A DNA stretch of 35,140 nucleotides from Spirochaetes bacterium GWE1_32_154. GTDB taxonomy: Bacteria > Spirochaetota > GWE2-31-10. Under the pieces are notes generated by a model. The model did no database searches and had not been told where the DNA came from. It was given only the letters and a program-made list of their open reading frames with translations. The DNA is taken from contig MIAY01000022.1 in the NCBI GenBank assembly GCA_001829315.1, positions 1 through 35,140 of the forward strand, in the 5' to 3' direction. The translations under genes and the position numbers were made by a program. Shown in pieces: positions 17,277 to 34,116 of the stretch (within the stretch, counting starts at the first letter, position 1; each line of letters opens with the position of its first letter).

Positions 17277-18419
17277 CTATTTGTCCATTTTTTGTCTTTC
17301 TAAGAATCTAAGAATTTCGGCATTACCGATCTTAGAAAATTCTCTTTTCTTAGCTTCTTCTCTTCTTGTAGCAAGAATACCCCAAGCATCTTCATGAATG
17401 ATTGGTAAATCTTCTCTTTCAAGAACAGCTTCATCATAAGTAACAACAACATCTTTTATGTAAGAAACAAAATCGCCACCTAATTGATCACCTTGTCTGT
17501 ACACTCTAAAACCATAAATTTTAACAAATGGTTCAGATCTTGGATACAAAGGAACAATATAAAGGTCTCTATTAGCTGCATTAGCTATATAGTTTGGATT
17601 AGTCCAAGTAATTTTTCTCCAACCGTCAAAATCAAGGTACTGTGGCATATGGTATTCTGTTACAATATCGTTTTCATTCTTCAAAAGCACTGATATTGAG
17701 TTTTTAAACTGACAACCATACACTCTTAAATCTAATGATTTAATAATACCAACATTTCTAACAACACCTTTACCATTAAGGAATTTTGTTCCTCTATCTT
17801 CTTTAGTAAGAATTGATGGATCGTAAACAATACCGCCTCTATCATCTTTAGCTAATTTTGAAGCATAATCTGCCTTAAGGTTACCTTTTTCATCAGTCCA
17901 CATATCTTCATACACTGGAATTTCAAAAGGTGGTTTTATTATTGCCCAGTTGTTAAATGCTGAATCGGAAAATCTGATTCGAGCACCAAGGATAGTATAT
18001 CCCTCAGGATCTTTTTGTTGATCAGCTGTTTGATCTTCTGATCTAAGAACGCTAACAAATTTAGTATGCCATTCTTTTGTAAAGGAATTACCTTTGTTTT
18101 CAACAGTACTTGCTGATGAATTAAGCTTAACATTCCAGTTTCCTGCTGCAAGTGATGTATTCATTGTTTTCACATCATCACCTGAGAAATTTGAACCTGC
18201 TATACCGGAATAATCAATAAGAGTAGGCATATGTTGCGTAAGTTCCGCAGGGTGTTCACTGAATGGAACCTCGCCTATACCTTTACTCTGTTCAGGAAGA
18301 CCAGTACCATTAGCTTTTAATAAATCAAAATCAATAAGAACTGATGTCTTACCGTAAACTGAAGTACTTAAGCCAATGAATAAGAGTACTCCTGTAAATA
18401 GGGAAATCCTTCTTCTCAT
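17277..18419 (-). CDS. flaA: Flagellar filament outer-layer (sheath) protein FlaA
   Basis: This 380-residue exported protein belongs to the spirochaete FlaA family, the sheath protein of periplasmic flagella. An N-terminal signal peptide (MRRRISLFTGVLLFIGLSTS) with a cleavage site after SVYG leads into SVLIDFDLL. The body contains family-like stretches such as LRVYGCQFKNSISVLL and VKIYGFRVYRQG. I chose ATG 18419 because AAGGAG lies nine to ten bases upstream. An upstream ATG would add 12 residues, spoil the signal peptide and lack an SD. The gene has its own sigma-70-type promoter and a strong terminator and looks richer in G+C than its neighbours, consistent with high expression. Confidence 0.9.
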   Translation of the reverse strand: MRRRISLFTGVLLFIGLSTSVYGKTSVLIDFDLLKANGTGLPEQSKGIGEVPFSEHPAELTQHMPTLIDYSGIAGSNFSGDDVKTMNTSLAAGNWNVKLNSSASTVENKGNSFTKEWHTKFVSVLRSEDQTADQQKDPEGYTILGARIRFSDSAFNNWAIIKPPFEIPVYEDMWTDEKGNLKADYASKLAKDDRGGIVYDPSILTKEDRGTKFLNGKGVVRNVGIIKSLDLRVYGCQFKNSISVLLKNENDIVTEYHMPQYLDFDGWRKITWTNPNYIANAANRDLYIVPLYPRSEPFVKIYGFRVYRQGDQLGGDFVSYIKDVVVTYDEAVLEREDLPIIHEDAWGILATRREEAKKREFSKIGNAEILRFLERQKMDK

Positions 18420-18469
18420 ATTTCTTTTCTCCTTAAAATAAATAATATTTAACATGGACTATAAAACAA

Positions 18470-18529: not shown

Positions 18530-18564
18530 TCAAAGTACATACATAAACTTTAGCATTACTTTGA
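18530..18564 (-). terminator. Possible weak terminator after the GerMN gene
   Basis: TCAAAGTA (18564-18557) and TACTTTGA (18537-18530) form an eight-base inverted repeat with a 19-base loop that overlaps the stop codon. It is followed by CGAATTTTAATT, which is only moderately U-rich. It would separate the upstream operon from flaA. Confidence 0.3.
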
Positions 18565-19062
18565 TAAATAATTATTATCCGAAATTACTCCTTTGTCAAG
18601 AGGTCCGTAATTTCCAATATAATTAAACAATATACCTTCTACATAAAAAAAAGCTCTTTCTATACTTTTATCATTAAATCTAATTGTATGCATAATTGAA
18701 TTAATAATAATAGCAGGATCATCAATTGTCTCAAACGTTTCTCTGTTAAAATCTAAATTAACACTGTTTTTTTCTATTACTACAGCAAGTAACTTTGATT
18801 TAGAGTTAAATTGATTTTTAAAATCAGGATTTACCGGTCCCAATAACAAATCATCAATTATTGCTGTGAGATGTTTAATTTTATTACTCTCTTTTTTAAC
18901 TTCTCTATTTTCATAAACCAGTTTATTATCTTTTGGATTAACATAAAACATTTTAACATATAATGTACTATTAAAACAAGAAAAACATATAATAATTAAA
19001 ATAATAGAAGAAATTATAAAAAAAACTTTTTTTCTAAAAACCAATAATTGATTCATACTCAT
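18556..19062 (-). CDS. GerMN-domain envelope protein
   Basis: The 168-residue protein has one N-terminal hydrophobic segment (about residues 12-32) followed by a GerMN-like domain: KIKHLTAIIDDLLLGPVNPD, the LLAVVIEKNSVNLDF strand and INSIMHTIRFNDKSIERAFF. GerMN domains are extracytoplasmic and occur in sporulation, germination and envelope proteins. This organism need not sporulate. The gene overlaps the 3' end of the amidase by 29 bases, so the two are probably translationally coupled and act together at peptidoglycan. A CFSC segment inside the hydrophobic region is not a convincing lipobox. Confidence 0.78.
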   Translation of the reverse strand: MSMNQLLVFRKKVFFIISSIILIIICFSCFNSTLYVKMFYVNPKDNKLVYENREVKKESNKIKHLTAIIDDLLLGPVNPDFKNQFNSKSKLLAVVIEKNSVNLDFNRETFETIDDPAIIINSIMHTIRFNDKSIERAFFYVEGILFNYIGNYGPLDKGVISDNNYLSK

Positions 19063-20203
19063 TTATAAAATCACACATCCCTTTAAAGATTCCTGCAATT
19101 ATTTTATTTGAATAAGATTCATTTGTCAATCTTTTTGCTTCATAATTATTAGATAAAAAACCAATTTCAACAAGAACCGCAGGCATGATTGAATTTTTGA
19201 CAACTATATAGGTATTTTCTTTAACACCTCGATCTTTAGAAACATTTCCTATTTGAATATTTAAGTTATTTTGTATTTCTGTTGCTAATTTCTTTGAATC
19301 TATATACAATTCATCATTTGCCATAGAATTTAATATATTTTCGATATCTTTATCATTTGAAGCATATCCTTTTTCAATAATATTTCTTTTATAGTCATCA
19401 ACAATATACCATGTTTCAAAACCATACGGTTTTGTAGAAATTGAAGCATTAACATGAATAGATAAAAATATTGTATGACCGTATTTTTTCATTGTATCAT
19501 TTGCTATTTTTGATCTATTTTCAAGCGGGACAAAAACATCGGTTCGGCGAGTCATGATTATTTTTTTTTCAGGGAATTTTTCTTTAAGTACTTTTTCTAA
19601 TTTCAACGCCGTTTTAAGTGTAATTTGCTTTTCAACTACCTGCCCCCTATAGGTACCGGGGTCACTACCTCCATGCCCTGCATCAATAACGATTGCATTA
19701 ATAGAGATTTTTTCAGGTTTTTTTGTATAAATAAACTGTTGATTATTCTCTTCTTTTGTTTGTTCAACTTCATCAGCTGTAATCTGAGCATCAAAATAGC
19801 TGTATTGTATATTTTTATTTGAAATCTTTTTAAGTATTTTATTAAATCCGGTTTCGTTGATTCTGACTTTACCATTCGATAATTTTATGATGTCATCAAG
19901 AAAAACTAAATTGTTATTTATTTCAACATACGCCGAACCATACAGGATTTTTAAATGCAAAGAATCATTACTGTATTCAATAATCGATCGAGAAACATCA
20001 TATTCTACTTTCATATTAAAATAATCAGATAAAATTGTTATATCAATTTCTTCACACCAAACAAGTATATACCCCAGTAAAAATAAAATTGTAATTATTT
20101 GTTTTCTTGAATTAACTAAAAGGAAGAGATTGAAGCAAAAATTCAAGATAAAGAGAATATTTTTCCTTGAGTCTCTATTATTCCTTTTGGGCATATATTT
20201 CAA
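19034..20203 (-). CDS. N-acetylmuramoyl-L-alanine amidase (Amidase_3)
   Basis: This is a peptidoglycan amidase of about 389 residues with an N-terminal hydrophobic export segment (IITILFLLGYILVW). A middle region of about 130 residues reads like an amidase-associated or copper-amine-oxidase-N-like beta domain. The catalytic domain carries all zinc and catalytic residues: VIDAGHGGSDPG, the glutamate in VVEKQITLK, SIHVNAS and the terminal VLVEIGFLSN. It should cut the amide between MurNAc and the stem peptide during cell separation. TTG 20203 is chosen because AGGTGA lies five bases upstream. GTG 20212 or ATG 20194 are alternatives. All of them lie inside the 3' end of the upstream fusion gene. 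Confidence 0.9.
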   Translation of the reverse strand: MKYMPKRNNRDSRKNILFILNFCFNLFLLVNSRKQIITILFLLGYILVWCEEIDITILSDYFNMKVEYDVSRSIIEYSNDSLHLKILYGSAYVEINNNLVFLDDIIKLSNGKVRINETGFNKILKKISNKNIQYSYFDAQITADEVEQTKEENNQQFIYTKKPEKISINAIVIDAGHGGSDPGTYRGQVVEKQITLKTALKLEKVLKEKFPEKKIIMTRRTDVFVPLENRSKIANDTMKKYGHTIFLSIHVNASISTKPYGFETWYIVDDYKRNIIEKGYASNDKDIENILNSMANDELYIDSKKLATEIQNNLNIQIGNVSKDRGVKENTYIVVKNSIMPAVLVEIGFLSNNYEAKRLTNESYSNKIIAGIFKGMCDFINEYESIIGF

Positions 20204-22646
20204 AAGTATCACCTAATTTGAATATTTTCGCATACATATTTATAAAACCGGTTACAAATTTATTGCCAAGTAATTTGTCTGAAGTTATAAATCGTGATGG
20301 ATGTATTCCTGTAATTCTAATTTTAATATTTTTAAAGCCATTTCTCATTAATACTTTTTTTAACATATCAGGATTAAATATATAAAAATGATCATCGGGA
20401 TGGTGTTTTAAATAGTTTTTAGTCTTTTTATTTATTGAATACCCTACTCCATTGGGAGTTGATAATGCCAATACACCATTTTTATTTAAATGTTTATTAA
20501 ACATAAATATTAATTTTTCATAATCTGCTATATGTTCTAAAACATAAAAAGAAGCAATAACATCAAATGTATCAGAATTTTTTTCGAGGTTTGTATTGTC
20601 AGCAACACATGCATTGATATGTAATGTATTTTTTATATAGTCAACCGCATATTCAGATATATCATAACAAACAGATTTAAAACCATTTTCCTGTGCATAC
20701 TCTGCAAAAAAACCAAGCCCTGATCCAAAATCAAGTAAAGTACCTGATTTTATATACTTTTTTATCATCTTTAGTCGATTTTCTGCAAATTTTCTGATAT
20801 TTTCCCGATCTTCTTCATACGTTTTTCCATACTGTTCTTTATATTCTTTAAAAAAATAATCATTATCATAATTTATTTTTTTCTCAACAAGATAATCAAT
20901 AAAATACAGACCACAATTTTCACATTTATACATATTCCATTCATTATTTCTGCCTGCAGTTTTTACCGTAAGATTACAACAATTATTACATAACAAAACA
21001 GAAGGTGATGATTCATCAATAATTTGTATAATATCATTCACTTTAGACCCGATTGTGCTATGATATGCTTTTTGAAGTACGACAGAATCCGGAAGAAAAC
21101 ACGTGTCATTTTCCATTTCTTTTATAGCATCTACGAGCGTTTTTTCAAAATTGTATTTGTCATCAACAAGATCTTTTTTAATAAAATAACTATACTGATA
21201 TTGTTTTGTTAAACTATCATAATAATAAGAATTATTTAATAGTAAGGCCGGTGTCTCAAGTTTCATTGTTTCAAAAAATGTCATACCAAAAGAAGTTATA
21301 ACCAGATCCGTTTCCTGAATAAATTCTTCAAGAGAATCAGGGCTGTAAATAATTTTAATATTTTCAAAATTATCAATTTTTTCTTTAAAATAAGGACCGA
21401 CAATAACAGTAAATTCATACCCCAAGCCTTGTAAACCTCTTAATACTCTATTTGTCAACAATGAACTGTCAACTGCACCAAAACTTATTAGTATTTTCTT
21501 TAAACCATCGATTTTTTTACATTTTAATTTCGTTTCATTGATAAAAACGTATTCTAACCCCTCAAAATTATACCGGTCATTTTTTTCAGATGCAATTGTA
21601 TAGGAATTTAAACTCATAAATGCTAAATCCGTTCCTTCACCGGCATCATCAATACTGAAAACAGGCCCTAAATTCAAAAAAAAGCCCATTTGTTCTAATG
21701 TAGTATTTTTAACATCCACAATAACCCGGTCATACATTCCGTCTTTTAAAACAGATTTTTCTACTTCATCAAGCGATATAAAATCAAAACCTGATTTTTT
21801 CAGATATTTTTCACCATCTTTATTGTCTGATAATTGAGTTATAGTAATACTAAATTTGTCTTTTAATAACGTAGCAATTGCTAATGACCTTTTTATATGA
21901 AATAAACCAAATTCATTTCCTGAATCAGTAATAATTAATGCCGTTCTAAAATTATCAAATTGTAATTCATCCCATACATTAACCACCGAGTGCATTGTAA
22001 GATTTAATTTTCTTTGATTTATTTTTTTAATAAAGAAATTAACACGTTCAAAATCATCCCTTGTGTCAACAGTAAGTCGAATTTCTCCTCGACCAGCCTC
22101 ATCATTATGGTATTTTTCAGTTACTATTTTGAATTCATTCGTATTTCGATAAATGAATGGCGTAACATGTTCTAAATCGTATGGTATATCACTTTTTAAA
22201 AGAGCTTTTACTAATGCTGATGTTTTTACTACTTCGACTCCGCTTCCATACGGCACAGGAGCAAGATATGCTAAATCCGCATTGGTTTTATTAAAAAGTT
22301 CAATCGTTTGAATTGCGATTTCAGATGATGATAAAGGATTATCTCCGGTTGCACGAATAACAGTATCAACCTCATAAAATACCGCAGCATCAACAAATCT
22401 TTTTAACACATTTTGTGAATTACCTGCAAATATATCCCATCCAGCCTCATCAGCTATTGGTTTTAAAACATCATAACTTTCATTTGATGTTAGTATAACT
22501 CTATGATCTGCCGGCACTACCGATAATCTGTCGATAACGTGATTAATAAGAAGTTTACCCGATAAATTAAGTAACGCCTTACCGGGCATTCTGTTTGAAT
22601 TTAATCTTACTTGCAGAAACAGCCCGATTGAATTGATTTTTACCAT
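20178..22646 (-). CDS. Triple fusion: SpsF-like cytidylyltransferase + SpsG/PseG-like domain + zinc-ribbon methyltransferase
   Basis: This 822-residue protein has three enzyme parts. Residues 1-about 235 are a CMP-sugar synthase-like nucleotidyltransferase with an intact QVRLNSNRMPGKAL loop and ATGDNPL metal site. Residues about 236-545 resemble SpsG/PseG (GT-B-like): the glycine loop with histidine FGLFHIKRS at 246-254, SFGAVDSSLLTNRVLRGL, and TSFGMTFFETMKLETPALLL. Residues about 553-578 hold paired cysteines (CNNC and CENC), followed by a class I methyltransferase with LLDFGSGLGFFAEY and FYVLEHIADYEKL. In nonulosonic-acid pathways PseG removes UDP and PseF adds CMP; here the order is SpsF then SpsG with a methyltransferase added. 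It follows the SPASM gene by 21 bases. I infer synthesis and decoration of an activated sugar, perhaps for flagella or envelope. Confidence 0.85.
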   Translation of the reverse strand: MVKINSIGLFLQVRLNSNRMPGKALLNLSGKLLINHVIDRLSVVPADHRVILTSNESYDVLKPIADEAGWDIFAGNSQNVLKRFVDAAVFYEVDTVIRATGDNPLSSSEIAIQTIELFNKTNADLAYLAPVPYGSGVEVVKTSALVKALLKSDIPYDLEHVTPFIYRNTNEFKIVTEKYHNDEAGRGEIRLTVDTRDDFERVNFFIKKINQRKLNLTMHSVVNVWDELQFDNFRTALIITDSGNEFGLFHIKRSLAIATLLKDKFSITITQLSDNKDGEKYLKKSGFDFISLDEVEKSVLKDGMYDRVIVDVKNTTLEQMGFFLNLGPVFSIDDAGEGTDLAFMSLNSYTIASEKNDRYNFEGLEYVFINETKLKCKKIDGLKKILISFGAVDSSLLTNRVLRGLQGLGYEFTVIVGPYFKEKIDNFENIKIIYSPDSLEEFIQETDLVITSFGMTFFETMKLETPALLLNNSYYYDSLTKQYQYSYFIKKDLVDDKYNFEKTLVDAIKEMENDTCFLPDSVVLQKAYHSTIGSKVNDIIQIIDESSPSVLLCNNCCNLTVKTAGRNNEWNMYKCENCGLYFIDYLVEKKINYDNDYFFKEYKEQYGKTYEEDRENIRKFAENRLKMIKKYIKSGTLLDFGSGLGFFAEYAQENGFKSVCYDISEYAVDYIKNTLHINACVADNTNLEKNSDTFDVIASFYVLEHIADYEKLIFMFNKHLNKNGVLALSTPNGVGYSINKKTKNYLKHHPDDHFYIFNPDMLKKVLMRNGFKNIKIRITGIHPSRFITSDKLLGNKFVTGFINMYAKIFKLGDTFEIYAQKE

Positions 22647-22667: not shown

Positions 22668-24104
22668 TTAAAAATTAAAAATATAATAATCATCACAATT
22701 TTTACAGCATTCTCGATATTCTGCTTTTGTTTGTGATATAAATTCTTTTTTATATACATCAGGTGCATCATCCACTGTACAATGCAATTTTTCATTTGAG
22801 TACATACATAATTGTATAGCTAAATCCGGTGTAAATGAAATTTCCCGTCTTATATGATAACACGGGAATCGCTTTAGTGGAGAAAGATCGACTACTTTTC
22901 TATCCGGTAGAGTACCGCAATATTGAGAGTATTTTCTTAATATTAAGTTTTCCATATCTTTATTTTTTAAAAGTGCCTCAATATCATCTTCATTACATGT
23001 CATACGTACAATTTGCCTATATGTAGTAAACCCTTTATTTTTTAATAAAGTAAACGCTGCTTTCGGGATATTCAGATCATATCCGTTATGAATTTTTTTA
23101 TAAGTCTCATCTGAAAAGGCATCAATTTTTATAACAAATGTAATGTTTTCTTTAAAATCATTTAATGCTTCAGTTATGTTATCTGTAACACAATATCCGT
23201 CAGTTTCAATAATTAATTCTAATTTTTTTTCAATAACAGAAGTGACCATAGTAATAAAATCAGGATGTCTTAAAGGATCTCCCCGTCCATTGAAAATTAT
23301 TTTTATATGAGGATTCATAGTCTGTAATGTCACAAGTACACGATCAAACTGTACCGGATCACAAAAAACATCAGGACTATTTTTAGCCGGATAATATATA
23401 GGTTCAGTATTTGACACAGTTGTTATTTCGAAGAATGCTCCGTACACTGTTGTATAGAATAGATGCTGATTTTTTAATAAATAATCAACCAGATCATCAT
23501 ACGTGGTATCAGGTGAAATTGAGTTAAGCAGATTATCAAGAAAAATCTTTTCCGGCTTTCCGTATGTGCCAAAAGATATTCTATATAAACGTAAATCATG
23601 TTTAGAAATAAATGTTTCTATATCAAAAGAATTAATATCTTTTGATATAGCGTAAAACAAATAATCATCACGTATTTCCTGATTTTCACCACAAAGAGTT
23701 ATCAGGTTTTTTAAACAATTGGGAGTAATAATCTGAGGGACTAAAAAATCGGGAAACCCAATACTATACGTATAATCTGCAACATATTTTTCATGTCTAT
23801 CAATCATCGTTTTAACATACTGAATATCAAAAAAAGGATTTCCGGAAGTATGTATTACAATATTGTCAGAATTTTTTGATTCTTTTAATATAGATTTTAA
23901 TATAACACCTATTGTTTTATTTTCAATTACCACGTTTTTAACAGTATCCGGTACAGTAGTAATCGTTCCGGTTTGTAACAAAATAACCCGTTCAAAAAGG
24001 GTTCTGTCAATTTTTGAAATAATATAGTCAAGAGTTGTTTTTGAGTTATCGGTTAATGTAACATCATTATTTTGAAAAATACCGTCAAGAATAAGAGTGT
24101 TCAT
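22668..24104 (-). CDS. Spirochaete SPASM-domain protein with degenerate radical SAM and nucleotidyltransferase-like domains
   Basis: The protein has 478 residues from ATG 24104, chosen because CAGGAG lies five bases upstream; an upstream in-frame start would add 45 hydrophobic residues without an SD. Residues 1-about 140 resemble a cytidylyltransferase fold (IVIHTSGNPFFDIQYVKTMI) but lack the PGK loop. Residues about 220-400 follow the radical SAM barrel, including a GGEP-like FNGRGDPLRHPDF at 271-283. Where the CxxxCxxC cluster should be (about 230-240) it reads TTVSNTEPIYYP with no cysteine. The C-terminus keeps SPASM-type cysteines at 415, 433, 442, 466, 467 and 470. I recall this architecture as the spiro-SPASM family (TIGR04321). 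Without the SAM cluster, radical chemistry is unlikely; an auxiliary iron-sulfur or structural role is inferred. Confidence 0.82.
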   Translation of the reverse strand: MNTLILDGIFQNNDVTLTDNSKTTLDYIISKIDRTLFERVILLQTGTITTVPDTVKNVVIENKTIGVILKSILKESKNSDNIVIHTSGNPFFDIQYVKTMIDRHEKYVADYTYSIGFPDFLVPQIITPNCLKNLITLCGENQEIRDDYLFYAISKDINSFDIETFISKHDLRLYRISFGTYGKPEKIFLDNLLNSISPDTTYDDLVDYLLKNQHLFYTTVYGAFFEITTVSNTEPIYYPAKNSPDVFCDPVQFDRVLVTLQTMNPHIKIIFNGRGDPLRHPDFITMVTSVIEKKLELIIETDGYCVTDNITEALNDFKENITFVIKIDAFSDETYKKIHNGYDLNIPKAAFTLLKNKGFTTYRQIVRMTCNEDDIEALLKNKDMENLILRKYSQYCGTLPDRKVVDLSPLKRFPCYHIRREISFTPDLAIQLCMYSNEKLHCTVDDAPDVYKKEFISQTKAEYRECCKNCDDYYIFNF

Positions 24105-24340: not shown

Positions 24341-24371
24341 TAAAAAATAGTTTATTATTTGGAGTTTGAAT

Positions 24372-24839
24372 ATGGAAACACTCATGTCATTAGTTACATT
24401 TAAAATAGGCAATGAACTGTATGGAATCGATATTATGGAAGTTCGCGAAATTGTACGACTTACAGAGGTTACTCCGATTCCTAATTGCCCTTCATTTGTG
24501 GACGGAGTAATTACATTACGGGGAGAAATCATACCGATTGTTGATCTTGGTAAACGGTTTCACTTTCAACCTCTGGAATATACTGAAGAAGATGAGTTAT
24601 TACGCGGGATTATTATTATAAATGCTGAAGATATGATTATCGGGGTTATGATAGATCAGGTGAATAGAGTTGTTAATATCAGTTACGACCAGATTCAACC
24701 GCCACCGCAGGTAATTGCGGGCATTGGGGCAGAATATATTCAAGGTGTTGTAAAAACCGAAAATAATTTACTTATCATTTTAAATATCAAAAAGTTATTC
24801 AGCCGATACGAATTGTTGCAGTTAACCGGTAGAGCTTAA
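24372..24839 (+). CDS. cheW: Chemotaxis coupling protein CheW
   Basis: The 155-residue single-domain CheW couples chemoreceptors to the CheA kinase at the cytoplasmic face of the membrane. It shows LVTFKIGNELYGIDIMEVRE, IPNCPSFVDGVITLRGEIIP and IVDLGKRF, then IIINAEDMIIGVMIDQVNRV and a final NLLIILNIKKLF. The start is ATG 24372, seven bases after GGAG; a TTG at 24366 is too close to the SD. It diverges from the SPASM-fusion operon and precedes the lysine-less DegT homologue, which ties that group to motility by position. Confidence 0.95.
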   Translation: METLMSLVTFKIGNELYGIDIMEVREIVRLTEVTPIPNCPSFVDGVITLRGEIIPIVDLGKRFHFQPLEYTEEDELLRGIIIINAEDMIIGVMIDQVNRVVNISYDQIQPPPQVIAGIGAEYIQGVVKTENNLLIILNIKKLFSRYELLQLTGRA

Positions 24840-24923
24840 AGTCATTTCTGCTATAAGCAAATAATATTTTTGTATTTAATCTACGTTAAATATTACCTAA
24901 AAATAAATATCATGAGGTTTTTT

Positions 24924-25991
24924 GTGAAAGATTTTATTGAAGTTCATAATCCGTCTATTAAAAGAAAAGATTTAGAATATGTATTGGAATCAATGATACA
25001 TGACAATCTTGAATATGGGGTTTCTGCCAAAACACTTGAGACAAAACTGAGTGAAAGAACCGGTTCTAAATATTGTATTGCTCTTAATTCATATTACACT
25101 GCGATTGATATAGTTTTTGAAGCACTTAATTTAAATGAGGGAGACGAAATTCTTATTCCGTCCTATACCCCTTCAATATATCTTGATATTATTTTAAGAA
25201 GAAAATTAAAGCCGGTTGTCATTGACACTGCTGAAAAATCATATTTTCCGGGCATTGAACAAATACAGAATGCAATAACTGACAAAACGAAAGTTTTAAT
25301 AGTTATTCATAATTTTGGCTACACTATTGACTGCAGCGGGTTTACCCCATTAGTTCCTGTGGTACTTGAAGATATCACAAAGGTTCCCGGTGCATTAGCC
25401 GGTACAAAGAAATCCGGTGAGTATGGACAATATGCGATCAGCTCGTTTTCAAGTACCGAATTGATTACAACAGGTGATGGTGCCGGAGTTTTCTGCAGTG
25501 ACAAAAAAGATTACCAGACTCTTTCTAAATTAATTTATGAATCTGCTACTGAAAATGAATCTGAAAATCTGTATCAATACAAGATTCATGGTTTAATGCC
25601 TGATATTAATGCTGCAATGGGTGTAAGTCAGCTTTCCAGTCTTGAAAAAAGATTGGATTTACGAAAAAAAATCGGTTCGATTTATGAAGAATCTTTATTA
25701 AAAAGTCGATGCAGTTTTATCCCAAGTATTGATGGTTGTGAAAGATATTATGCTGATTTTCCTTTTCAAATAAAATCAGGTTTAAAAGATGCTATTGCAT
25801 TTTTTAAAAAGAACGGTGTTGAGGTTATTAAGCCTTATGAAAAACCAATTCATCATTATTTAAATTTACCAAAAGAAAATTATCCGAATACAGAAAAATT
25901 ATTTTTATCATCCCTATTAATTCCATCAGGGTCTACATTATTAAAAAAAGATGTTGAAAAAATATCCAAGTTATTAATGGCAATGATTTAA
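24924..25991 (+). CDS. DegT/DnrJ/EryC1/StrS-family protein lacking the PLP lysine
   Basis: This is a 355-residue fold-type I sugar-aminotransferase homologue. Family landmarks are IEVHNPSIKRKDLEYV, CIALNSYYTAIDIVF, GDEILIPSYTPS and the aspartate in VVLEDITKVPG (Asp150). The segment normally reading SFHPTKNLTTGEGG reads SFSSTELITTGDGAG, so the Schiff-base lysine is Glu179 (GAA at 25458-25460). Transamination is therefore not expected. Known lysine-less relatives such as ColD use histidine, not glutamate. I chose GTG 24924 because TGAGG lies six bases upstream; ATG 24912 has no SD. It lies between cheW and NAD kinase. It could be a pseudoenzyme partner, a sugar-binding protein, or a new activity. 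Confidence 0.85.
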   Translation: MKDFIEVHNPSIKRKDLEYVLESMIHDNLEYGVSAKTLETKLSERTGSKYCIALNSYYTAIDIVFEALNLNEGDEILIPSYTPSIYLDIILRRKLKPVVIDTAEKSYFPGIEQIQNAITDKTKVLIVIHNFGYTIDCSGFTPLVPVVLEDITKVPGALAGTKKSGEYGQYAISSFSSTELITTGDGAGVFCSDKKDYQTLSKLIYESATENESENLYQYKIHGLMPDINAAMGVSQLSSLEKRLDLRKKIGSIYEESLLKSRCSFIPSIDGCERYYADFPFQIKSGLKDAIAFFKKNGVEVIKPYEKPIHHYLNLPKENYPNTEKLFLSSLLIPSGSTLLKKDVEKISKLLMAMI

Positions 25992-32001: not shown

Positions 32002-33225
32002 ATGGATAAATTATTGAATGAAAAATATGCTCAACTTATTTTGAATAGAGGAATTAATCTGCAAAAAGGTCAATGCGTTCGTATTATGACAACAGTTGAC
32101 TCATACCATTTTGCTTTAACAATACTTGAAAAAGCATATTCGCTCGGTGCTAAGTTTGTAAAAATAGAAGTGGCGAGTGATTATACCACTTTACATAGAG
32201 CTAATAATTCTCAAAAGGAATTTATAGACTATATACCGGATTATGAATATGCCAACAACAATATGATGATTGCTGAAAACTGGGCTTTTATCAGCATAAC
32301 TAATACTGATGAATTTGATGTTTTAAACAATGCAAATACTGAAAATGTTCAATCTTTAATGAGAAATGCACAAATAACCAGAAAAAAATTAAGGGATAAA
32401 CTAATGAGTGATAAACAGTCATGGATAGTTGTCGCCTACCCCGGTCCGAAATGGGCAGAAAGAATATATGGTTCTTCAAATGAACTCCATAAACTCGAAG
32501 ACGCTTTTAAGAAGATTATGCGACTTGACAAAGATGATGTTGATTCATACTGGAATGCACATTCAAATACATTAATTAACCGATGCCACTATTTGAATGA
32601 CCTGCATCTGGATAAACTTATTTTTAAAAATAAATTAGATGAACTTGAAATCGGATTAAATACCACTTCAATATGGCATGGAGGTCCGGCAAAACTTCCT
32701 GACGGCAGATTATTTATGCCAAATATGCCAACCGAAGAAGTTTTTACGACACCTGATTTTACGAGAACCAATGGCAGAATATCAGTTGTGAAACCTGTTG
32801 ATGTTTTTGGAACAACAATAAAAGATTTAAAACTGGAATTTAGAAATGGTGAAGTAATCAATTTTAATTGTTCAAAAGGTATGGACATGATGGAAAAATA
32901 TCTGTCAATTGATAAACAGGCTAAATTTTTAGGAGAGGTTGCGTTAGTTGATAAAAATTCACCAATTAATACATCATCTTTATTTTTTAACAGTATTCTA
33001 TTTGATGAAAATGCTTCATCGCACATAGCCTTAGGAGCGGGATATCCGAGTTGTATAAAAAACAATCAGAATTTACTATCTGATGATGACAGATTGGCTG
33101 CTGGATGTAATGTGTCATCAGTACATACGGACTTTATGATTGGTACTGAAGACACATGTGTAACCGGATTTACTTCGGATGGTAAAGCGATACAAATAAT
33201 GAAAGATGGTTCATTTGTTATTTAG
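32002..33225 (+). CDS. M29-family aminopeptidase (AmpS/PepS type)
   Basis: The 407-residue cytoplasmic metallopeptidase removes N-terminal residues from peptides. The M29 metal-site segments are present: MPNMPTEEVFTTPD (Glu pair), LGEVALVDKNSPI, the histidine in FDENASSHIALG and the final HTDFMIG. Length matches the family (about 400-415). AAGGAAGG precedes ATG 32002. It converges with the radical SAM gene, and the two reading frames overlap by 15 bases at their stops. Substrate preference cannot be inferred. Confidence 0.93.
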   Translation: MDKLLNEKYAQLILNRGINLQKGQCVRIMTTVDSYHFALTILEKAYSLGAKFVKIEVASDYTTLHRANNSQKEFIDYIPDYEYANNNMMIAENWAFISITNTDEFDVLNNANTENVQSLMRNAQITRKKLRDKLMSDKQSWIVVAYPGPKWAERIYGSSNELHKLEDAFKKIMRLDKDDVDSYWNAHSNTLINRCHYLNDLHLDKLIFKNKLDELEIGLNTTSIWHGGPAKLPDGRLFMPNMPTEEVFTTPDFTRTNGRISVVKPVDVFGTTIKDLKLEFRNGEVINFNCSKGMDMMEKYLSIDKQAKFLGEVALVDKNSPINTSSLFFNSILFDENASSHIALGAGYPSCIKNNQNLLSDDDRLAAGCNVSSVHTDFMIGTEDTCVTGFTSDGKAIQIMKDGSFVI

Positions 33226-34116
33226 GGACAATTTAAGTTTAGCTTGAATTCCATTTAATATACGCTTTTTATCGGTGCTCCATTGTGGTTCAATTAATGT
33301 TTTCCATGGAGCATCACCTGTTAACCGATGAATTACTATTCCAGGTTCAATTATTGTTAATAATTCAGAAACAGTATCAATATATTGATTGATTGACATA
33401 CAATGTACCGGATTTTTAATATGATATTGTTCTAAAAGTGTATCTTTCATGATATGAAGCATCTGAATTTTTATACCATCAGCTTTGATTGCTGATATAT
33501 ATCGAATAAAAAATTTATAATCATCAATAGTTTCACCTGGCAGTCCAATAATTTGATGTATAACGATGTGAACATTTAATTTTCTTAAACGGTAATAATT
33601 ATACTCAAAACTCTTTAAGTCATATCCACGATTTATAAAAAATGCAATATCATCATGTATTGTTTGTAAACCAAGTTCAACTTGAACATACGTTCGTTGT
33701 GATAAATCTGAGAGTAATTCTATTACATCGTCTGATAAACAATCAGGTCGTGTTGCAATTGCAACTCCAACAGCCCCCGGATATGAAATTGCTTCTTCAT
33801 ACATGGCACGTAATGTATCAACCGGTGCATAGGTATTGGTAAAAGCCTGAAAATATGGTAACAGTAAACCATTCGTATTTTTTGCATGTATCTTTTTTAT
33901 TCCTTCAGAAATTTGATTTGTTATTGATAATGCAGTTGATGAACAAAAATCACCGGATCCTCGTGGACTACAAAAAATACAACCGGAAGAACTAATTGAA
34001 CCATCTCGATTGGGACAGGTAAAGCCAGCATCAATTGAGATTTTATAAACCTTTTTTCCAAATTTGTTTTTGAAAAAAAAATCAGCAGAATAATAATTTT
34101 TATCAAAAAAAATCAA
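33211..34116 (-). CDS. Radical SAM protein, TIGR01212/YtqA family
   Basis: The 301-residue radical SAM protein has the family cluster motif: the first cysteine in GFTCPNRDG and the following GCIFC pair. It also has LLPYFQAFTNTYAPVDTLR, VGVAIATRPDCLSD and VQVELGLQTIHDD, all hallmarks of the TIGR01212 group. The start is TTG 34116 with AAGGT upstream. The family has a conserved fold but, as far as I know, no firmly assigned reaction, although tRNA or cofactor modification has been considered for relatives. It overlaps the M29 gene tail-to-tail by 15 bases. Confidence 0.93.
   Translation of the reverse strand: MIFFDKNYYSADFFFKNKFGKKVYKISIDAGFTCPNRDGSISSSGCIFCSPRGSGDFCSSTALSITNQISEGIKKIHAKNTNGLLLPYFQAFTNTYAPVDTLRAMYEEAISYPGAVGVAIATRPDCLSDDVIELLSDLSQRTYVQVELGLQTIHDDIAFFINRGYDLKSFEYNYYRLRKLNVHIVIHQIIGLPGETIDDYKFFIRYISAIKADGIKIQMLHIMKDTLLEQYHIKNPVHCMSINQYIDTVSELLTIIEPGIVIHRLTGDAPWKTLIEPQWSTDKKRILNGIQAKLKLSLNNK

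Follow-up and report, generated by a model that had tools for sequence, protein, structure and literature searches.

A spiroSPASM protein lacking the radical-SAM cluster in a spirochete operon most likely devoted to flagellin glycosylation

The spiroSPASM gene and its neighbourhood

The stretch of DNA analysed here, referred to as the window, comprises 35,140 nucleotides of contig MIAY01000022.1 from Spirochaetes bacterium GWE1_32_154 and carries on its minus strand (22668..24104) a gene of 478 codons, with an ATG at 24104 and a stop at 22668, encoding a protein of 478 aa. The coordinates given in the first-pass annotation are correct, and the gene is read from the minus strand, the plus strand of the interval being full of stops. 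The comparison with the TIGR04321 model, which that annotation had suggested as a check, assigns the protein to the NCBIfam family spiroSPASM (302.1 bits, E 7.2e-90, with a cut-off of 250 bits), with which it shares its length and the C-terminal CxxCDxYYxFNF end. It is encoded by the single spiroSPASM gene of a 4.03 Mb spirochete assembly, and a profile search of this genome found no Cys-bearing paralogue able to compensate for it, the remaining matches being ordinary radical SAM proteins. Another gene of the window, 9 kb away (33211-34116, minus strand), encodes a radical-SAM-like protein whose CPNRDGSISSSGCIFC-type cysteine region is intact; it looks ordinary and unrelated to the operon described below.

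Downstream, after 21 bases, comes a gene coding for an 822-aa fusion of an SpsF cytidylyltransferase, a PseG-like protein and a SAM-methyltransferase (20178..22646), which is overlapped by the gene of an N-acetylmuramoyl-L-alanine amidase of the Amidase_3 type (19034..20212); a Germane/GerMN-domain protein (18556..19062) and the flagellar outer-layer (sheath) protein FlaA (17277..18455) come next, all on the minus strand. The genes from spiroSPASM to FlaA are overlapping or close, and the last three are conserved neighbours. SpiroSPASM heads a conserved operon composed of a GT-like gene, SpsF, the PseG-like/methyltransferase gene, an ATP-grasp ligase, the amidase, GerMN and FlaA; the gene order seen in the window is repeated throughout the phylum, where a GT-like gene and an ATP-grasp ligase are usually inserted. 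Among the 90 loci with enough sequence, 81 have SpsF downstream of spiroSPASM and on its strand. The label "GT-like" is our reading of the sequence, Pfam having given no match. A GT-like relative was not found in the genome of the window. An ATP-grasp relative with 50% identity occurs at another place in this genome, as a 754-aa fusion with an FMN-dependent dehydrogenase (L200:8554-10818, on contig C11 of genome G000). Both findings weigh against the pathway proposed below. The SpsF, PseG-like and methyltransferase parts are fused in the window and at loci L202, L102 and L084, and are separate genes in other relatives. On the plus strand, divergent from spiroSPASM, are found cheW (24366..24839), present as such in seven loci of the clade, and a gene matching the profile of the DegT/DnrJ/EryC1 aminotransferases, PseC/LegC-like (24870..25991), a possible partner in the pathway.

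Three domains, two lost active sites

The AlphaFold2 model of the whole protein has a pLDDT of 94.7 and a pTM of 0.91, and a Foldseek search of the PDB with the whole chain returned SuiB, SkfB and BtrN, in addition to a Leptospira cytidylyltransferase. Three domains can be delimited.

The N-terminal domain (residues 1-214; 23463..24104, minus strand) adopts the fold of SpsF-type cytidylyltransferases but has no R..S.R.P.K nucleotide loop, as indicated by hhalign, AlphaFold2, Foldseek and the loop pattern. A likeness of this region to the SpsF encoded by the next gene had been proposed from the pairing of NIVIHTSGNPFFDIQYVK with TVIRATGDNPLSSSEIAI. This pairing is far beyond chance, because the profile-profile alignment of residues 1-214 with the neighbouring SpsF recovers it in the same register (probability 98.8, E 5e-17, 208 columns). 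Moreover, SpsF neighbours match the spiroSPASM family HMM at many loci, and in several genomes genes adjoining spiroSPASM match the N-terminal half of the TIGR04321 model. Modelled in isolation, the domain has a pLDDT of 95.7, and nucleotidyltransferases or their relatives make up 50 of the 50 PDB matches listed by Foldseek, the best among them being 6oew, the Leptospira cytidylyltransferase (E 4.8e-9). An unrelated fold would have refuted the first reading, which has thus survived this check. The fold and the full-length profile homology are common to residues 1-213 of spiroSPASM and to the SpsF/CTP_transf_3 proteins; unlike the latter, the spiroSPASM domain falls below detection by PF02348 and has no nucleotide-binding loop, and the clade of the window protein also lacks the metal-binding Asp of the DxP motif. 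The absence of the PGK loop, already noticed in the first reading, extends to the family: the R..S.R.P.K pattern occurs in 113 of 129 SpsF sequences and gives a single, spurious match (L129) among the spiroSPASM N-domains. Of the 148 homologues, 122 retain the Asp of the DxP motif; it is replaced in the window protein, which reads SGNP.

The second domain (residues 215-405; 22890..23462, minus strand) is a radical-SAM partial barrel without the ligands of the SAM cluster, recognised by PF04055, AlphaFold2 and Foldseek. PF04055 matches residues 263-379 with 36.4 bits (cut-off 29.5), which places the domain in the radical SAM superfamily by fold, while the CxxxCxxC motif of this superfamily is missing: where relatives read CPQxCxYCPY, the window protein has TTVSNTEPIYYP (residues 228-239; 23388..23423, minus strand), and in the exact alignment S231, P235 and Y238 stand in the place of the three cysteines. 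The GGEP-like FNGRGDPLRHPDF is present as described in the first-pass annotation (residues 271-283; 23256..23294, minus strand), though with D in place of E276. A displaced cysteine triad forming a SAM cluster, which that annotation had named as one of two outcomes that would speak against it, was rejected from the positions of all twelve cysteines (130, 138, 248, 305, 370, 396, 415, 433, 442, 466, 467 and 470), with no triad upstream of the tail. The motif itself can vary, as in the relative L176 with its shifted CX4CX2C, and a hidden cluster sustaining an active radical enzyme could be imagined on that ground; the cysteines of the window protein form no triad before the tail, and 49 relatives are devoid of any cysteine in the motif region, so that this is extremely improbable.

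The third domain (residues 406-478; 22671..22889, minus strand) had been taken for an intact-looking SPASM tail with six cysteines. All six are present (415, 433, 442, 466, 467 and 470), and only C415, C433, C467 and C470 are invariant, in 78 of 78 sequences of the first alignment and in 148 of 148 homologues, Cys-bearing and Cys-less alike; their codons lie at 22860-22862, 22806-22808, 22704-22706 and 22695-22697, respectively, on the minus strand. The assignment to SPASM does not hold. The SPASM motif consists of seven cysteines binding two clusters, arranged as CX9-15GX4C-gap-CX2CX5CX3C-gap-C (PMC6231123). The tail of the window protein reads CX17C, a gap and CX2C, and the chain stops eight residues past C470; it is too short for the seven-Cys motif and fits the four-Cys, one-cluster pattern of the Twitch domains. 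PF13186 (SPASM) has no match in the window protein, though relatives match it. By profile, the closest solved relative is BtrN (E 3e-15), whose cysteines align with C433, C467 and C470; C415 is outside the aligned stretch. The BtrN counterpart of C415 is presumed from its spacing, and with it the window protein has the four cysteines of the BtrN-type Twitch domain. BtrN is a Twitch sugar-type (aminocyclitol) dehydrogenase with an auxiliary [4Fe-4S] cluster fully ligated by four cysteines (PMC6231123, PMC9012708). The two proteins (4m7t for BtrN) share the barrel, the Twitch domain and the expected four-Cys auxiliary cluster; BtrN has a SAM cluster and no nucleotidyltransferase domain, whereas the window protein shows the reverse. 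From the conservation of the four cysteines in 148 of 148 homologues, we infer that the Twitch domain holds one four-Cys [4Fe-4S] cluster, so that the auxiliary cluster, as first proposed, is probably live.

Loss of the SAM cluster across the family

From the whole genomes of the phylum 78 distinct homologues were collected, and 80 from named genome records, giving 148 distinct sequences after merging; the named records were searched with a 19-row alignment, the 78-row one being too diverse, and a search of genome contigs with the single protein found no homologues. The cysteines of the SAM cluster are kept in 66 of the 148 sequences (65 with CxxxCxxC and one, L176, with the shifted motif) and lost in the other 82, where the motif region retains no cysteine in 49 cases, one in 27 and two in 6. 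Intermediate states of the motif, in which it reads CX4CX2C or retains just one or two of its three cysteines, are seen in the Treponema genomes carrying L176, L168, L177 and L185.

The changes of state were counted on a maximum-likelihood tree from which the motif columns had been left out (LG+G4 with a quick search and SH-aLRT support). Parsimony requires at least 16 of them on the uncollapsed tree, or 19 when regain is forbidden, and at least nine independent ones once the branches with support below 95 are collapsed; with shuffled labels the mean is about 49. Nine is the figure relied on here, since a quick search leaves the deep branches uncertain. Cysteine loss bears no relation to the presence of the GT-like, ATP-grasp or amidase genes.

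The barrel has not decayed after the loss and is still under purifying selection in Cys-less members: its dN/dS (Nei-Gojobori) ranges from 0.08 to 0.35 in 15 Cys-less pairs (median 0.14) and from 0.09 to 0.23 in nine Cys-bearing pairs (median 0.19), and in Cys-less pairs the ratio is low over all three domains. Furthermore, E300 is kept in 82 of 82 Cys-less members, which also keep T301, G303, D328, Y335, R367 and E372, and the E276 of the GGEP-like motif is found in 88% of them. The first-pass annotation had spoken of two dead enzyme folds. This stands as far as the loss of both active sites is concerned; for the barrel, "dead" is too strong a word, given the purifying selection and the retention of E300, T301, G303, D328 and R367.

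The frequency of the loss, together with the one or two cysteines left in 33 of the 148 sequences, could suggest a passive remnant, in which the radical domain and its cluster are decaying and the N-domain alone, or nothing at all, matters. Such a reading is already disfavoured and appears highly unlikely in view of the low dN/dS in all three domains of Cys-less pairs, the intact reading frames, the four auxiliary cysteines conserved in 148 of 148 sequences and the retention of the gene in a reduced genome of 1.1 Mb (L202). Since the protein has remained conserved through at least nine losses of the SAM cluster, a useful role without radical chemistry is indicated.

This role might be enzymatic. 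According to this alternative, the barrel of the Cys-less protein is a binding site for the sugar, and perhaps for SAM as well, and the auxiliary cluster itself carries out non-radical chemistry or a two-electron redox reaction on the glycan precursor. In its favour, the barrel residues listed above are kept in Cys-less members, the dN/dS of the barrel is as low in Cys-less as in Cys-bearing members, and the relatives BtrN, DesII and BlsE act on sugar-like substrates. However, the four predicted ligands are all cysteines, as in BtrN (PMC9012708), which leaves no open iron for a substrate; moreover, no catalytic site was recognised, and in the window protein itself E276 is replaced by D. Such an enzyme is the main rival of a role as partner or scaffold next to SpsF, which is preferred here, and we consider it possible, if rather doubtful.

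A minor feature of the lost site is the residue at position 237 (23394-23396 in the window), which is Tyr in 71 of 82 Cys-less and in 24 of 66 Cys-bearing sequences, the Cys-less loop tending to [IV]-Y-x-P. This is a hint of possible convergence, and the independent pairs (2.3 vs 0.0 of 9) are too few for the difference to be significant.

Flagellin, nonulosonic acids and the probable role of the protein

Strong spiroSPASM matches (E below 1e-20) were found in 303 of 351 flagellin-bearing genomes of the phylum and in 0 of 42 flagellin-less ones, counts that are non-independent, being shaped by ancestry and partly reflecting the history of one clade. At least three of the co-absences with flagellin look independent (f49; g83 vs g139 in f44; g158 vs g124/g143 in f50). 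In a sample of 41 genomes picked on spiroSPASM status alone, a strong NeuB match and a Maf (MptE-like) protein are each present in 28 of 28 genomes with spiroSPASM, compared with 1 of 13 (NeuB) and 0 of 13 (Maf) without it, four flagellin-bearing f36 genomes being included among the latter. The genome of the window has flagellin, Maf and NeuB. The f36 spirochetes are flagellates with small genomes (0.9-1.9 Mb) that have flagellin and, where sampled, no spiroSPASM, Maf or NeuB, and they therefore appear to lack the flagellar glycan system.

Taken together, the PseG-like protein, SpsF, NeuB and Maf point to a nonulosonic-acid glycan of flagellin, a product deduced from the neighbouring genes. 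The operon would thus make a CMP-activated nonulosonic acid of the pseudaminic-acid type and attach it to flagellin. In a paper of 2017, the glycan of Treponema denticola is reported to be a sugar of the pseudaminic type whose N7 bears a deoxy-hexanoyl group that is O-methylated; such a structure would suit the methyltransferase and ATP-grasp ligase encoded in the operon. Because the amidase, GerMN and FlaA share the operon, and its tie to flagellin is a correlation, another surface polysaccharide or glycoprotein, e.g., the FlaA sheath or the cell envelope, could be served instead of the flagellin FlaB. We judge this unlikely, in view of the strict dependence on the presence of flagellin and on Maf, whose family members in other bacteria attach nonulosonic acids to flagellin (PMC4065374, PMC11339370). 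Moreover, the FlaBs of T. denticola bear a glycan of 450.2 Da needed for filament assembly (PMC9481697). This is a spirochete flagellin with an unusual and essential glycan whose genes are left unassigned in the passages used here; its link to the spiroSPASM operon is one that we infer.

On balance, it seems probable that the window protein is a three-domain pseudo-enzyme, made of a pseudo-nucleotidyltransferase, a radical-SAM barrel without the SAM cluster and a BtrN-type Twitch domain, which has a probable non-radical job in an operon most likely producing CMP-activated nonulosonic acid for flagellin. As judged from sequence, it is most likely a pseudo-radical-SAM partner in nonulosonic-acid glycosylation of flagellin. 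Its ancestor was probably a BtrN-like radical enzyme modifying a glycan precursor bound to its SpsF-like domain. The radical step would be dispensable, because the SAM cluster has been lost repeatedly, on at least nine occasions, while a second function would be indispensable, because the auxiliary ligands and the barrel have been conserved without a break. Both the auxiliary Fe-S cluster and the pseudo-nucleotidyltransferase fold would belong to what cannot be dispensed with. The present protein would probably keep a sugar or sugar nucleotide, or else the SpsF-PseG-methyltransferase protein, within a complex of which the auxiliary cluster would be a structural or redox element. More tentatively, the auxiliary Twitch cluster, and not the SAM cluster, may be the indispensable cofactor of spiroSPASM, which would then be an Fe-S protein on a radical-SAM scaffold controlling or performing a non-radical step of flagellin glycosylation, e.g., as a redox gate on the SpsF-PseG-methyltransferase assembly.

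SpiroSPASM has already been named as a family, and pseudo-SAM/SPASM proteins as a kind are not new. TIGR04347, a pseudo-rSAM/SPASM family of haloarchaea by its name, is SPASM-like without the SAM cluster and is matched by 4 of 81 spiroSPASM relatives; it is a separate family, and unlike it spiroSPASM has many intact radical members, the SpsF-like fusion and the flagellar-glycan operon. A search limited to open papers found none on spiro-SPASM, TIGR04321 or a radical SAM protein of spirochete flagellin glycosylation; the SpsF ancestry, the Twitch assignment, the repeated loss within one family whose auxiliary cysteines are invariant, and the connection with a flagellin-glycan operon are additions made here to the open literature found. 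The usual explanation of the auxiliary clusters of SPASM and Twitch enzymes is that they accept the electron of the radical. In spiroSPASM the auxiliary ligands have stayed unchanged through at least nine losses of the radical cluster, which implies a second function and offers natural proteins in which the auxiliary cluster can be studied alone.

The locus also points to an uncharacterised, phylum-wide operon of spirochete flagellin glycosylation, kept even in a genome of 1.1 Mb. In this single-contig genome of 1.14 Mb, a size like that of the syphilis group, the Cys-less spiroSPASM gene (L202:8736-10415) encodes all four auxiliary cysteines and is followed by a GT-like gene and an SpsF-methyltransferase fusion.
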